From the NCBI RefSeq assembly GCF_030733845.1, contig NZ_CP132311.1:561501-625500 (forward strand): a DNA stretch of 64,000 nt. The letters are read 5' to 3'. The notes below the pieces were generated by a model that was not told the DNA's origin, ran no database searches, and saw only the letters and a list, made by a program, of their open reading frames with translations. Of this stretch, positions 47,803-51,559 are shown one piece after another. The translations under genes and the position numbers were made by a program. The first letter of the stretch is position 1. The number at the start of each line of letters is the position of its first letter. The stretch is from Shinella zoogloeoides (lineage in GTDB: Bacteria > Pseudomonadota > Alphaproteobacteria > Rhizobiales > Rhizobiaceae).

Positions 47803-47971
47803 AAGATTGTTTGATTGATACTATTAGAAACATTCGTTGGACTGATCAATGGGATTCTGCGAAAAAGCAATTGTTGAACGATTGATCCGGGATGCCGGGC
47901 ACGTTCGGCAGGATCTGCCGCTTCGCCAAGACCTCCCGGCTGTGGCTCTTCTTGAGACTTGACCTTTGAAC

Positions 47972-47996
47972 CGCCGCCCAAACCCTGTGGGCGGCG
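47972..47996 (+). other. Stem-loop upstream of the second DUF1127 gene
   Basis: CGCCGCCC pairs perfectly with GGGCGGCG around a 9-nt loop. It lies in the 5' region between the LysR gene and the DUF1127 gene, about 70 nt before the start codon, with no U tract. It may be part of the leader. Confidence 0.4.
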
Positions 47997-48066
47997 AACG
48001 ATCACGGGCGTCGTGCGAAACCCCATCGAAGGACGATGGAGCGCCGCGCCGGAAAGGAGAAATGCC

Positions 48067-48363
48067 ATGCGCATGATCGACCGCAGAATGGAAATCGATA
48101 TTCTCGCAACGCGCCGTCCGGCTCCGAGCCTCTTCGGGCGTGTCCGCAGCGCCGCCGGGAAACTCGTCCGCGCCTGGCAGAATCGCCGCGTGATCAACCG
48201 GCTCAGCGAGCTCGACGACTACCAGCTCTATGACATGGGGCTGTGCCGCAACGACGTTCACGAGCTCCGGTCCGCGTCCTTCTTCTCCGATGCGGGCCTG
48301 CATCTGACGATCACGGCGCGCGAGCGCGCCCGCCGTCACCTGCGCAACGGCCGCCTGGATTGA
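48067..48363 (+). CDS. DUF1127 domain-containing protein (98 aa)
   Basis: A 98-residue basic protein. The C-terminal half of the core is a DUF1127 unit: LVRAWQNRRVINRLSELDDYQLYDMGLCRNDVHEL. A 33-residue N-terminal lead and a C-terminal Arg-rich tail surround it. AAAGGAG lies 6-7 nt before the ATG. DUF1127 proteins are often stress-induced and some bind RNA. This is the longer type; the short one at 28387 precedes the CCTCCTCCC hairpins. Confidence 0.85.
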   Translation: MRMIDRRMEIDILATRRPAPSLFGRVRSAAGKLVRAWQNRRVINRLSELDDYQLYDMGLCRNDVHELRSASFFSDAGLHLTITARERARRHLRNGRLD

Positions 48364-48482
48364 TTTTTACCGGCGTCGTCCTACCTCTGAGGGCGGCACC
48401 TAGCTTCCCCGCAGGGTGAGAGCCAATAACCCTGCCGCTTGCCCGGCGCGTGACTCCCAAGGTCCGCGTCGGGCTTTTTCGT
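48364..48482 (+). ncRNA. Structured 3' region / candidate small RNA ending in a terminator
   Basis: Downstream of the DUF1127 gene are GCAGGGT/ACCCTGC (48411-48435) and a strong stem CCCGGCGCG/CGCGTCGGG with one wobble (48442-48473), ending CTTTTTC. This is at least the terminator of the gene. The preceding structured 80 nt could be a 3'-UTR-derived small RNA. There is no motif I can name. Confidence 0.4.
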
Positions 48483-48511
48483 TCGGTGCTAGATTTCGGT
48501 TAGCGCCCGCG

Positions 48512-48865
48512 TCATTTCACGACGATGGCGACGACGCCCGATTGATAGCGGTGCACCTCCGAGCCGGCGGCGACGCCGGTCGCGTTCACGGCGCGGGTGG
48601 GAACGCGCCTCCCGCAATCCTTGCTGACGCGGCTGGACGGCCCGCCGTCCGAATAGGTGACGATGGCCGATTTCGGCAGGCGGCTGGCGATCGCGTCGAA
48701 GCTCGGCGGCGTCCCGCCGCAACCGTTCGCCCGGTAGGCGGTCAGATGCCGGGTTTGCCCCACGGAAAGCTCGACCGTCTTGTCCGCGCTGCCGGCGCTG
48801 ACGCAGCCCGTCATCACCAGTGCGGCAAGTGAAAGGCCGGCTAGAATTCTGTATTCCCTCATCAT
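48512..48865 (-). CDS. Lipoprotein with the C-x34-C periplasmic domain (family of three)
   Basis: A 117-residue lipoprotein: signal peptide MREYRILAGLSLAALVMTG, lipobox Cys21. The mature part carries the same domain as the two proteins across the divergent promoter: VGQTRHLTAYRANGCGGTPP, then LPKSAIVTYSDGGPSSRVSKDCG, VPTRAV and AGSE. Cys49 and Cys84 are 35 residues apart, exactly as in the two neighbours, so a conserved disulfide is likely. Start: ATG with GAGGGA upstream; a longer frame runs into the promoter and is rejected. I do not recognise the family. It may be a soluble or lipid-anchored partner or competitor of the membrane sensors. Confidence 0.78.
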   Translation of the reverse strand: MMREYRILAGLSLAALVMTGCVSAGSADKTVELSVGQTRHLTAYRANGCGGTPPSFDAIASRLPKSAIVTYSDGGPSSRVSKDCGRRVPTRAVNATGVAAGSEVHRYQSGVVAIVVK

Positions 48866-49072
48866 TTTTCCCTCGATCGATAGAGCGCCCCAGGCGCTGC
48901 CCAGCAGGTCCGGATGTTCGGACCCGGAAGGATTGAGGGCGGAGATCGCGCTGCCCCGCAAAGGAAAAGTCGAGTGATTTTCGGAAAGTCCGGAAACTCC
49001 GCAGCAAATCCGTATTCCTATCAACCTGAAACGACTTATAATTCCGGTCTCTGCGAGTAGGGGCGGGGTGAT
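48866..49072. promoter_or_regulatory. Divergent promoter region of the three-gene family, with a dyad
   Basis: This 207-nt region separates the lipoprotein from the membrane proteins. It holds GGTCCG-N6-CGGACC (48907-48924), a perfect dyad with 6-bp arms, and nearby repeats of CGGAAA (48976-48996). These are candidate operators for the HTH-like proteins. Confidence 0.4.
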
Positions 49073-49861
49073 TTGTTGGAACTCGAAAACCGGGAAGATT
49101 TCCGGACCTGGCATGAAATGTTCGATCTGCTTTGCCAGCGTGCGGGCTATAGCGGCAATGCCGAGCTGGCGAGCCGCTATTGTTCACGGATCGGCAAGAC
49201 GGGGCGGGATGATTTCGAGGCGGTCCAGAAGAATTTGAGAAACTGGCGTCTGGGGCGCCATCTGCCGCTGCGCCGCAATCTCGTCCTGCTGGCGGACCTG
49301 CTGCGCGTGCAGGAGGACCGGGAGCTTCTGCGCCGGTGGAACGCACTCTACACGGCGGCGCGCGGAGAGGTGCCGCAGGCCGACCTCGTGGCGGATGCCA
49401 GTGGTGAAGCGACAGCAACGGCCGTCTCTCCTTCCGCGTCTCCCTCGCATCTGCGGCGGCTCGCGCCCTGGGCGGCGCTGGCGCTCGGGATCACGGTCGG
49501 CGGCGGCCTGGCATGGAGCGCCTTCGACGAGCACCGGCAATTCAAGCGCCTTCCAATGATCGGATACGATGCGAGGGTGAAGATGGTGGTGGGCGAAACG
49601 CGTCTCATCCATGGAGACCGCGGCGATTGCGGGGGAGAGCCGCCGGACTGGTACTACATCCTGCCGCAGGTTCCGCCGAGCGCGCTGGGCATTTTCTCGG
49701 ACGGCGGGATCGCCCGCAAGATGGACAATGGCTGCAACGCGGTGGTGCGGGCGCGGGCGGTCCGCTTCACGGCAAGGACAGCTGGTTCCGAAGAGCTCAA
49801 ATTGCTTGGGGACTACATGAAGATCGTCGTGACGGACCGCGGCCATCCGCGGACCGAGTGA
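49073..49861 (+). CDS. Single-pass membrane protein: HTH-like cytoplasmic domain plus periplasmic C-x34-C domain (paralogue 1)
   Basis: A 262-residue protein of three parts. Residues 1-100 are soluble and helical: FDLLCQRAGYSGNAELASRYC, then NLRNWRLGRHLPLRRNLVLLADLLRV, which resembles the recognition end of Cro/C1-type HTH domains (W-x-x-GR-x-LP). A Ser/Ala/Thr-rich linker follows. One membrane helix spans 131-151 (APWAALALGITVGGGLAWSA). Residues 160-255 are the periplasmic domain with VVGETRLIHGDRGDCGGEPP, SDGGIARKMDNGC and RFTARTAGSEE; Cys186 and Cys221 are 35 apart. The start is TTG after GGGGTG. It looks like a membrane-bound transcription factor with a periplasmic sensor. Its paralogue follows 21 nt later. 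Confidence 0.78.
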   Translation: MLELENREDFRTWHEMFDLLCQRAGYSGNAELASRYCSRIGKTGRDDFEAVQKNLRNWRLGRHLPLRRNLVLLADLLRVQEDRELLRRWNALYTAARGEVPQADLVADASGEATATAVSPSASPSHLRRLAPWAALALGITVGGGLAWSAFDEHRQFKRLPMIGYDARVKMVVGETRLIHGDRGDCGGEPPDWYYILPQVPPSALGIFSDGGIARKMDNGCNAVVRARAVRFTARTAGSEELKLLGDYMKIVVTDRGHPRTE

Positions 49862-49882
49862 TTATTCTGCCGGAGGGGAAGG

Positions 49883-50665
49883 ATGGAAGAACAGGATCTG
49901 ATCGATGCCGAGACATGGCATGTGCTCTTCAACGAATTGTGCAATCGCGCCGGCTATTTCGACGATGCCGCCCTAGCCGCGGCCTATTGCGGCCTGATCG
50001 GCAACAAGGACCAGAAACAGTTCGATACGGTCCTGCGCAACCTCAACAACTGGCGCTCCGGCCGCCATCTGCCTCGTTCCGGCAACCTGCGCATCCTCGA
50101 AAACCTCCTCGCGATCCGCAAGGGAACCGCATTGCAGGCGCGCTGGCGCGAACTCCACCGCATGGCAAAGCCCCTCGAGGAAGAGGTGCGCGCGATGCCA
50201 GACACGACGAGGGTGCAGACGTCCCCTCCCGTGCCGACGCGCGCAAGCCAGGCCGGGCGCTGGAAGGTGGCGCAGGCGGTTTGCGCGGGGATCGCCCTGT
50301 TCTGCGCCGGCGCCTTGGCGGGCGGCGGCGTGGTGGCGTCCGGCTGGCGCCCCTGGGCGGGCCCCGCCGACAACGCCCCGATCATTCCCTTCCGTCCTGA
50401 CATCACGATGAAACGCGGGGAAACCCGGCCCATCTATGCCGTTCGCGGCGATTGCGGGGAACTGCCGAAGGACTGGGCGGACCTGTTGCCGGATCTCCCC
50501 GAGACCCGGACGGGAAGCCTTTCCGACGGCGGTCTCGCCCGCCGTCACAGCAAGTTCTGCCAGGGCCTGACGCCGGCGCGCGCCATCCGCTTCACCGCCA
50601 GCGTCGTCGGCACCGAGGAATTCGAGATTCAGGGCGATTTCTTCAAGATGACAGTGACGGAGTAG
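49883..50665 (+). CDS. Single-pass membrane protein: HTH-like domain plus periplasmic C-x34-C domain (paralogue 2)
   Basis: A 260-residue paralogue of the preceding protein, with the same order. The N-terminal helical domain has TWHVLFNELCNRAGYFDDAALAAAYC and NLNNWRSGRHLPRSGNLRILENLLAI. A membrane helix spans about 129-152. The periplasmic domain has MKRGETRPIYAVRGDCGELP, SLSDGGLARRHSKFC and RFTASVVGTEEFEIQGDFFKM. Cys191 and Cys226 keep the 35-residue spacing. GGAGGGGAAGG precedes the ATG. The tandem copies plus the divergent lipoprotein point to a local duplication that has been kept, perhaps as a heteromeric sensor. Confidence 0.8.
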   Translation: MEEQDLIDAETWHVLFNELCNRAGYFDDAALAAAYCGLIGNKDQKQFDTVLRNLNNWRSGRHLPRSGNLRILENLLAIRKGTALQARWRELHRMAKPLEEEVRAMPDTTRVQTSPPVPTRASQAGRWKVAQAVCAGIALFCAGALAGGGVVASGWRPWAGPADNAPIIPFRPDITMKRGETRPIYAVRGDCGELPKDWADLLPDLPETRTGSLSDGGLARRHSKFCQGLTPARAIRFTASVVGTEEFEIQGDFFKMTVTE

Positions 50666-50713
50666 AACCGCGCGGAGGGTCCGGACGATACGCCGCCGGC
50701 GAACGCCTGTGCG

Positions 50714-51559
50714 TCAGGCCTTCTTGCCGCCATCGGCTGCCGCGCCACCTCGCATCGTCTCGAAGATCGTCTCGACATTGCGCTGGTAGTCCTTCTGCAT
50801 GTCGAGGCCGGTGTCGAACATCGTGTTGACGAGGGTCTTCAGCGAATCCGCCGGCGAGGCGTCGGGCTCGCTCGGCTTCTCGCTTGCCGCCGTCTGGCCG
50901 CCGGCGCTCGCCATCATGTCCTGGAAGGCCTTGGCGAACGGATTGTCGGTGAAGGGGTTGGCCGGCGCATCCTTCTTCTGGTTCGTGCCGAAGAATTCCT
51001 GTGCCGCCTGCGTGAAGGGGTTGTCGGTGAAGGGGTTGGCCGGTTCCGGCTTCTTGGCAAGACCTGTCGCCTCGGCCCATTGCTGCATCATCTCGGCGAA
51101 GGGATTGGCCTGCGACGTGCCGGCGCCGGGGAAGAACGGCGCGAGCGACTGCTTGAAGATGCCGCCCATCAGCGTGCTCGCCATGACCGGCAGCATCTGC
51201 TTGTAGATTTCCTGGCCGATGCCGGTCATCTGGGCCGCCTGCGCGGCGATGGCGCGGGAGACGTCCTTGTTGCCGAAGAGATGGCCGAGAATGCCGTTGC
51301 CCTCCGCCATGCCCTGCGGCGTGAAGGCCTTGCTGATATCCTCGAAATACTTGGCGTGCTCGCCCGATGTCAGCGCCTTCATGAAGGCGGCAAGGTCGTA
51401 GGGGTTGGCGGCGTTGCGCTTGAAGCCCTCGGAAAAGGCCGGCATCAGCGCGGCGACAGCCTTGGCCGCCTGCTCCTGCGCGAGGCCGAACTGCCGCGCC
51501 ATGGTCTCCACGGCATGGCCGTTCTGCGCCTGCATCATCATGTCGTAGAGCGAAAGCAT
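50714..51559 (-). CDS. DUF937-family protein
   Basis: A 281-residue cytoplasmic protein. The N-terminal part is the DUF937 helical domain (MARQFGLAQEQAAKAVAALMPAFSEGFKRN, then GILGHLFGNKDVSRAIAAQAAQMTGI). The C-terminal part contains an internal duplication: ANPFTDNPFT and ANPFTDNPFAK, with near-identical DNA at about 50931-50961 and 51013-51043. The ATG chosen opens LSLYDMMMQAQNG. Function unknown. It is the last of a minus-strand series after gshA, with a gap of about 93 nt. Confidence 0.82.
   Translation of the reverse strand: MLSLYDMMMQAQNGHAVETMARQFGLAQEQAAKAVAALMPAFSEGFKRNAANPYDLAAFMKALTSGEHAKYFEDISKAFTPQGMAEGNGILGHLFGNKDVSRAIAAQAAQMTGIGQEIYKQMLPVMASTLMGGIFKQSLAPFFPGAGTSQANPFAEMMQQWAEATGLAKKPEPANPFTDNPFTQAAQEFFGTNQKKDAPANPFTDNPFAKAFQDMMASAGGQTAASEKPSEPDASPADSLKTLVNTMFDTGLDMQKDYQRNVETIFETMRGGAAADGGKKA

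Follow-up and report, generated by a model that had tools for sequence, protein, structure and literature searches.

Regulators of the ToxR/CadC type, the transmembrane transcriptional regulators, combine an N-terminal cytoplasmic helix-turn-helix (HTH) domain, one transmembrane (TM) helix and a C-terminal periplasmic sensor with a cysteine pair. In CadC, the periplasmic disulfide is reported to support the inactive state (PMC3096576). In the co-component systems ToxR/ToxS and VtrA/VtrC, the membrane-tethered regulator is encoded beside a periplasmic partner, which is lipocalin-like and whose gene mostly overlaps that of the regulator (PMC9214523). Here we describe a comparable cassette in Shinella zoogloeoides, located in a stretch of 64,000 nucleotides from contig NZ_CP132311.1 (positions 561,501 to 625,500; hereafter the window). 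A 207-bp divergent intergenic region (48866-49072) separates the gene of a predicted lipoprotein from two tandem genes for putative membrane-bound sensors, S1 and S2, and contains a conserved element of 35 base pairs (bp). The features are as follows, the gene coordinates being the same as in an earlier reading of the window from its letters alone (the sequence-only reading):

48512..48865, minus strand: predicted lipoprotein, 117 amino acids (aa); a signal peptide whose lipobox reads VMTGC precedes the two-Cys module (C49, C84, SDGG at 72).
48963..48997, minus strand: GTTTCCGGACTTTCCGAAAATCACTCGACTTTTCC, an operator-like element that is conserved; it lies 75 bp ahead of the S1 start codon and 97 bp ahead of that of the lipoprotein gene.
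49073..49861, plus strand: S1, the first sensor (262 aa, start codon TTG), with a predicted HTH domain, a single TM helix and the two-Cys module (C186, C221).
49883..50665, plus strand: second sensor S2, 260 aa; HTH-like domain at about 10-103, predicted TM helix 129-152, two-Cys module at about 168-260 (C191, C226).

The explanation that we favour, and consider reasonably probable, is a self-addressed envelope circuit, in which the membrane-anchored HTH regulator pair binds the intergenic element and controls its own operon together with the lipoprotein gene. Such a pair would share its architecture with ToxR/CadC but differ from it in three respects: the DNA-binding domain is a winged helix in ToxR/CadC and is predicted to be all-helical and lambda-repressor-like here, the scans made found no relation for the periplasmic module, and the cassette comprises two tandem paralogues plus a lipoprotein with the same module. 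The partner also differs from those of the co-component systems, as it is a divergently encoded lipoprotein that carries the regulators' own module instead of a lipocalin-like domain. HigX and BcrR are likewise membrane-anchored bacterial regulators. The DNA-binding domain of BcrR is of the XRE type. Unlike the cassette sensors, BcrR senses bacitracin through a four-helix TM domain. HigX, which its authors present as the first member of its class to be characterised in alphaproteobacteria, differs by having a LytTR domain, four predicted TM helices and no periplasmic domain (PMC13384398). RodZ has an XRE-family HTH, one TM helix and a folded, beta-rich periplasmic domain (PMC6946637), but its HTH binds MreB, whereas the cassette sensors come with a DNA element. 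Scans with Pfam, NCBIfam and PHROGs assigned the three cassette proteins to no credible family, and searches among open-access papers listed none that by its title concerns the cassette; the main text of PMC10269533 contains neither 'XRE' nor 'HTH'.

The cassette family and its intergenic element

Protein searches returned 73 sensor and 63 lipoprotein homologues, which their sources, where they give a name, call 'hypothetical protein', 'Lipoprotein' or 'Uncharacterized protein'. When named genomes were scanned with the lipoprotein alignment, 16 loci were obtained, in records of Agrobacterium, Mesorhizobium, Aquamicrobium, Nitratireductor, Oryzicola, Corticibacterium and Rhodobacter. In 12 of these 16 loci the lipoprotein gene is divergent from two tandem sensor genes as in the window, so that the homologues do co-occur, as the sequence-only reading had demanded of its proposal. 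The genomes of L025 and L026 carry the sensor pair elsewhere than the lipoprotein, and sensor genes were not found in those of L014 (Agrobacterium) and L029 (Rhodobacter); L016 was covered at its locus only, where the sensor pair is visible. With regard to the surroundings, the widest protein cluster beyond the lipoprotein and sensor clusters spanned at most 8 of the 17 compared loci among the matches listed, into which antisense open reading frames (ORFs) are mixed, and the neighbours in common among these matches fall into at least two synteny groups. The system is sporadic, since the sensor profile matched 13 of 397 sampled genomes of the order (module-only and N-domain-only genes included) and the lipoprotein profile 10 of 397, strongly in one, the window's own. 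Two plasmid records matched S2 in tblastn searches, at 30% and 38% identity, while the same searches gave no plasmid record for the lipoprotein and no phage match for S2.

A conserved 35-bp block, TTTTCCGnnnTTTCCGnnnATnnCCCGATTTTTC, was present in all 13 intergenic regions that were aligned, twelve from the cassette loci above and one from the window, the copy at L023 deviating in the first repeat. When the window's genome was searched with a pattern of 23 fixed bases, allowing up to three mismatches, the pattern matched once, at the cassette, and the reversed control gave no match. It should be noted that this pattern was drawn to fit the window site, so that the weight of the result rests on there being no other match. 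A looser pattern (up to two mismatches) gave 13 matches in 12 of 26 genomes and none in the controls; 12 of the 13 adjoin a sensor gene, and the single match away from sensors (G000, C2:1741692) is probably due to chance.

A weight matrix built from the 13 cassette sites, which scored 31.0 to 56.0 when left out in turn, was applied to copies outside that set. In the L025 and L026 genomes, where the lipoprotein gene and the sensor pair lie apart, both are preceded by a separate copy of the element: the matrix scored 43.5 and 37.2 ahead of the sensor pairs, and 32.7 and 31.5 ahead of the lipoproteins. The score ahead of the G028 sensors was 39.0. Held-out loci of the sensor family were judged against 20 Markov shuffles of each locus, and the element was counted in 7 of 14 (L044, L045, L046, L047, L051, L081 and L082). 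By the same measure L048, L049, L050, L083 and L084 had no supported copy. L052 and L053, whose genes have the N domain and no recognisable periplasmic module, showed a match to the right half (AATCGCCCGATTTTTT) near their starts, which exceeded the shuffles in L052 and not in L053 and was not counted. No copy was found at the lipoproteins of the two sensor-less genomes or at any of six module-only loci (best scores 9.6 and 7.3, away from genes). Judged by this distribution, the element tracks the HTH genes together with their lipoprotein and not the periplasmic module, because unlinked sensors and lipoproteins have copies, whereas sensor-less lipoproteins and module-only loci have none. The right half of the element was also considered as a dyad and set aside as too weak.

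These data bear directly on the best-surviving alternative, namely that the element serves as a core promoter, or as a site for some other regulator encoded elsewhere, and that the sensors do not read it. The element does sit in a divergent promoter region, binding by the sensors is something that we infer, and seven of the 14 held-out loci lack a counted copy. A sigma-70 scan of 48300-50800 gave no site at all, which is neutral for the promoter reading. However, about one site per genome does not suit a general sigma factor or a global regulator, and the element accompanies the HTH genes even where lipoprotein and sensors are unlinked. We regard this alternative as unlikely.

The sensors also fall into two groups. 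In a tree of 40 sensors (midpoint-rooted, with some long branches), 15 distal genes (S2) grouped in a single clade (99/99), while another clade united 15 proximal genes (S1) and, in addition, the first gene of the G444 pair (100/99). Since these two well-supported clades follow gene order, we read S1 and S2 as the products of a putative old duplication kept in fixed order. The recognition segments differ by clade in the 13 cassettes, reading K[KNS]LRxWRxG[KRQ][RH]xPL in S1 and RNL[NS]NWR[ST]G[RK]HxPR in S2. The two genomes with a split cassette each carry a third, unlinked single sensor (L083, G443 C5:985542; L084, G444 C1:463155), and at L081 (G444 C2:1259853-1260628) the second sensor reads in two frames, either a broken gene or a sequencing error.

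Cytoplasmic domain and topology of the sensors

The N domains of S1 and S2 aligned to each other with a score of 215, the maximum of 1000 shuffles being 60. In the S2 model this domain is all-helical, and its best structural matches are lambda-repressor-like HTH proteins; at the sequence level it aligned to Cro/C1-type HTHs on the NWRxGRHxP segment (hhalign, P 4.5e-4). The sequence-only reading had noticed an NWRxGRHLP motif, which is indeed present, and had compared it with the recognition end of Cro/C1-like HTHs. That comparison gains from the model, which predicts an HTH-type fold for the domain and not a non-DNA-binding one. In the Pfam scan, no sensor exceeded the curated cut-off for the Cro/C1 (XRE) family HTH_3 (PF01381), which matched one of 35 sensors at E 0.12, and the Pfam rows for the 35 sensors were weak throughout (best E 0.0083).

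With regard to topology, the best 19-residue hydropathy in the 35 sensors ranged from 1.35 to 2.29 (mean 1.91), and the S2 model has a TM helix at 129-152. On the N side, the 15 residues flanking this segment carried a mean net charge of +2.06, with positive values in 33 of the 35 sensors and zero in the other 2; on the C side the mean was -0.2. The sensors are accordingly predicted to be single-pass proteins with the N terminus inside. The designation 'ToxR/CadC-style one-component sensor', proposed in the sequence-only reading, consequently fits the architecture (single-pass, N-in, HTH) and not the fold, because the N domain is predicted to be all-helical and not a winged helix; at E 1, the Pfam scan of the 35 sensors returned no winged-helix domain with beta strands. 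Two more cysteines are invariant in the cytoplasmic domain of all 35 aligned sensors, 16 residues apart (C20/C36 of S2, C21/C37 of S1), and may constitute a thiol or metal site. This pair, the conserved intergenic element and the conservation of the whole cassette are new relative to the sequence-only reading.

The architecture noted above for RodZ allows a second alternative, in which the sensors are RodZ-like scaffolds, the HTH-like domain contacting another protein instead of DNA and the cassette serving a structural purpose; the HTH of RodZ is reported to bind MreB and RodZ itself, not DNA (PMC6946637). Against this, a conserved DNA element accompanies the HTH genes. Moreover, HTH_25 was absent among the families matched by the 35 sensors (Pfam scan, E 1), and hhalign of the sensors to seven HTH_25 segments gave P 0.046, compared with the 4.5e-4 obtained for Cro/C1. 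When the window's genome was searched with HTH_25 and an MreB model, neither RodZ nor MreB emerged clearly: the one HTH_25 match was just below the cut-off and lay within an HTH_3 protein, and the two MreB matches over the 27-bit cut-off (52.5 and 30.6) were both partial, in ORFs of 648 and 756 aa. The size of these ORFs is Hsp70-like. The MreB model also matched in 12 of 14 control genomes, and its matches are equivocal as to an MreB partner. Taken together, the scaffold alternative appears improbable.

The shared two-Cys module

The sequence-only reading had described a common, unrecognised periplasmic module in the three proteins, with cysteine pairs 35 residues apart at 49/84 in the lipoprotein, 186/221 in S1 and 191/226 in S2. 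These positions are correct, an SDGG motif separates the two cysteines in each protein, and Pfam, NCBIfam and PHROGs do not name the module. The similarity lies beyond chance: the lipoprotein scored 133 and 100 against the sensor C-domains, values reached by none of 1000 shuffles each (maxima 50 and 47), and the same held for each of the four comparisons made in all. An SDGG-type motif was found in 70 of the 73 sensor and 61 of the 63 lipoprotein homologues, and the cysteine counts refer to these, leaving out the three sensors and two lipoproteins that lack it. All of them (70/70 and 61/61) have exactly two cysteines from 28 residues before the motif to the C-terminal end, with a spacing of 35 in 68 of 70 sensors and 61 of 61 lipoproteins, and of 33 or 34 in the other two sensors. 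This invariance, together with the absence of any other cysteine from the module, suggests a disulfide between the two.

Structure searches with the module gave weak matches to immunoglobulin (Ig)-like, Big_2 and chagasin-like folds, and an Ig-like periplasmic fold is predicted. The lipoprotein model had a mean predicted local distance difference test (pLDDT) score of 85. Foldseek gave no PDB match at E 0.001, and sequence searches of the PDB with each of the two alignments returned no row under E 0.4, the weak rows including antitoxin HigA-2 (E 0.5-0.69) and a LexA-like protein (E 1.7). The lipobox at residues 17-21 of the window protein is that of a bacterial lipoprotein, and its cysteine column is conserved in 36 of 39 aligned homologues; judged by eye, some members, for example P0128 and P0131, have plain signal peptides instead. 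A profile search listed 118 proteins, mostly lipoprotein relatives found before or close to these. Free-standing versions of the module with a signal peptide occur in genomes of the order; at L054-L059, small predicted secreted proteins consist of the two-Cys module alone, with no sensor in the fetched stretch. That the module acts by itself as a chagasin-like or Ig-like inhibitor, adhesin or carrier, the HTH fusion being secondary, has those weak fold matches and free-standing forms on its side and an element that follows the HTH genes on the other, and we give it the least credence of all.

A candidate envelope circuit

The self-addressed circuit is based on the sequence record of the cassette, that is, three genes with a two-Cys module, a recurring divergent layout, two sensor clades in fixed order and an element that, across the genomes searched, occurs almost exclusively next to these genes. 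In this circuit, two paralogous lambda-repressor-like HTH regulators would sit in the membrane with their N domains in the cytoplasm, where these domains would bind the 35-bp element between the divergent genes and thereby control how strongly their own operon and the lipoprotein gene are expressed. That they act as activators and not as repressors is a guess, made because of the ToxR/CadC analogy. The periplasmic two-Cys module would be the input, reading a signal that could be its own redox state or a ligand, and the lipoprotein module might pair with the sensors or take the same ligand, thereby closing a feedback loop. Two findings weigh against this last part: the module distances of the lipoproteins and those of the sensors correlate weakly (0.20 and 0.36), giving no support for pairing of lipoprotein and sensor, and around some sensors the fetched stretch contains no lipoprotein gene. 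The lipoprotein feedback is for these reasons the weakest step. The roles that the sequence-only reading considered for the lipoprotein, namely decoy, ligand carrier or target, are likewise conjectural.

A more far-reaching version would make the cassette a new class, in which each genome has a single composite element whose halves are read separately by two non-interchangeable lambda-repressor-like regulators, the sole other output is a module-bearing lipoprotein that feeds back by pairing, and the cysteine pairs on both sides of the membrane form a two-compartment thiol sensor. We put this forward tentatively and hold it to be doubtful as a whole. If the self-addressed circuit is true, the cassette would represent an unnamed alphaproteobacterial family of membrane-bound regulators for which comparative genomics reveals the cognate DNA site, which would be an unusually direct start, and the near-private regulon would make the circuit testable. 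A regulator pair whose output bears the same sensory module would also be a simple design for envelope feedback. Adjoining the lipoprotein gene is a small ORF (window 47959-48363), which we presume to resemble a DUF1127 protein.
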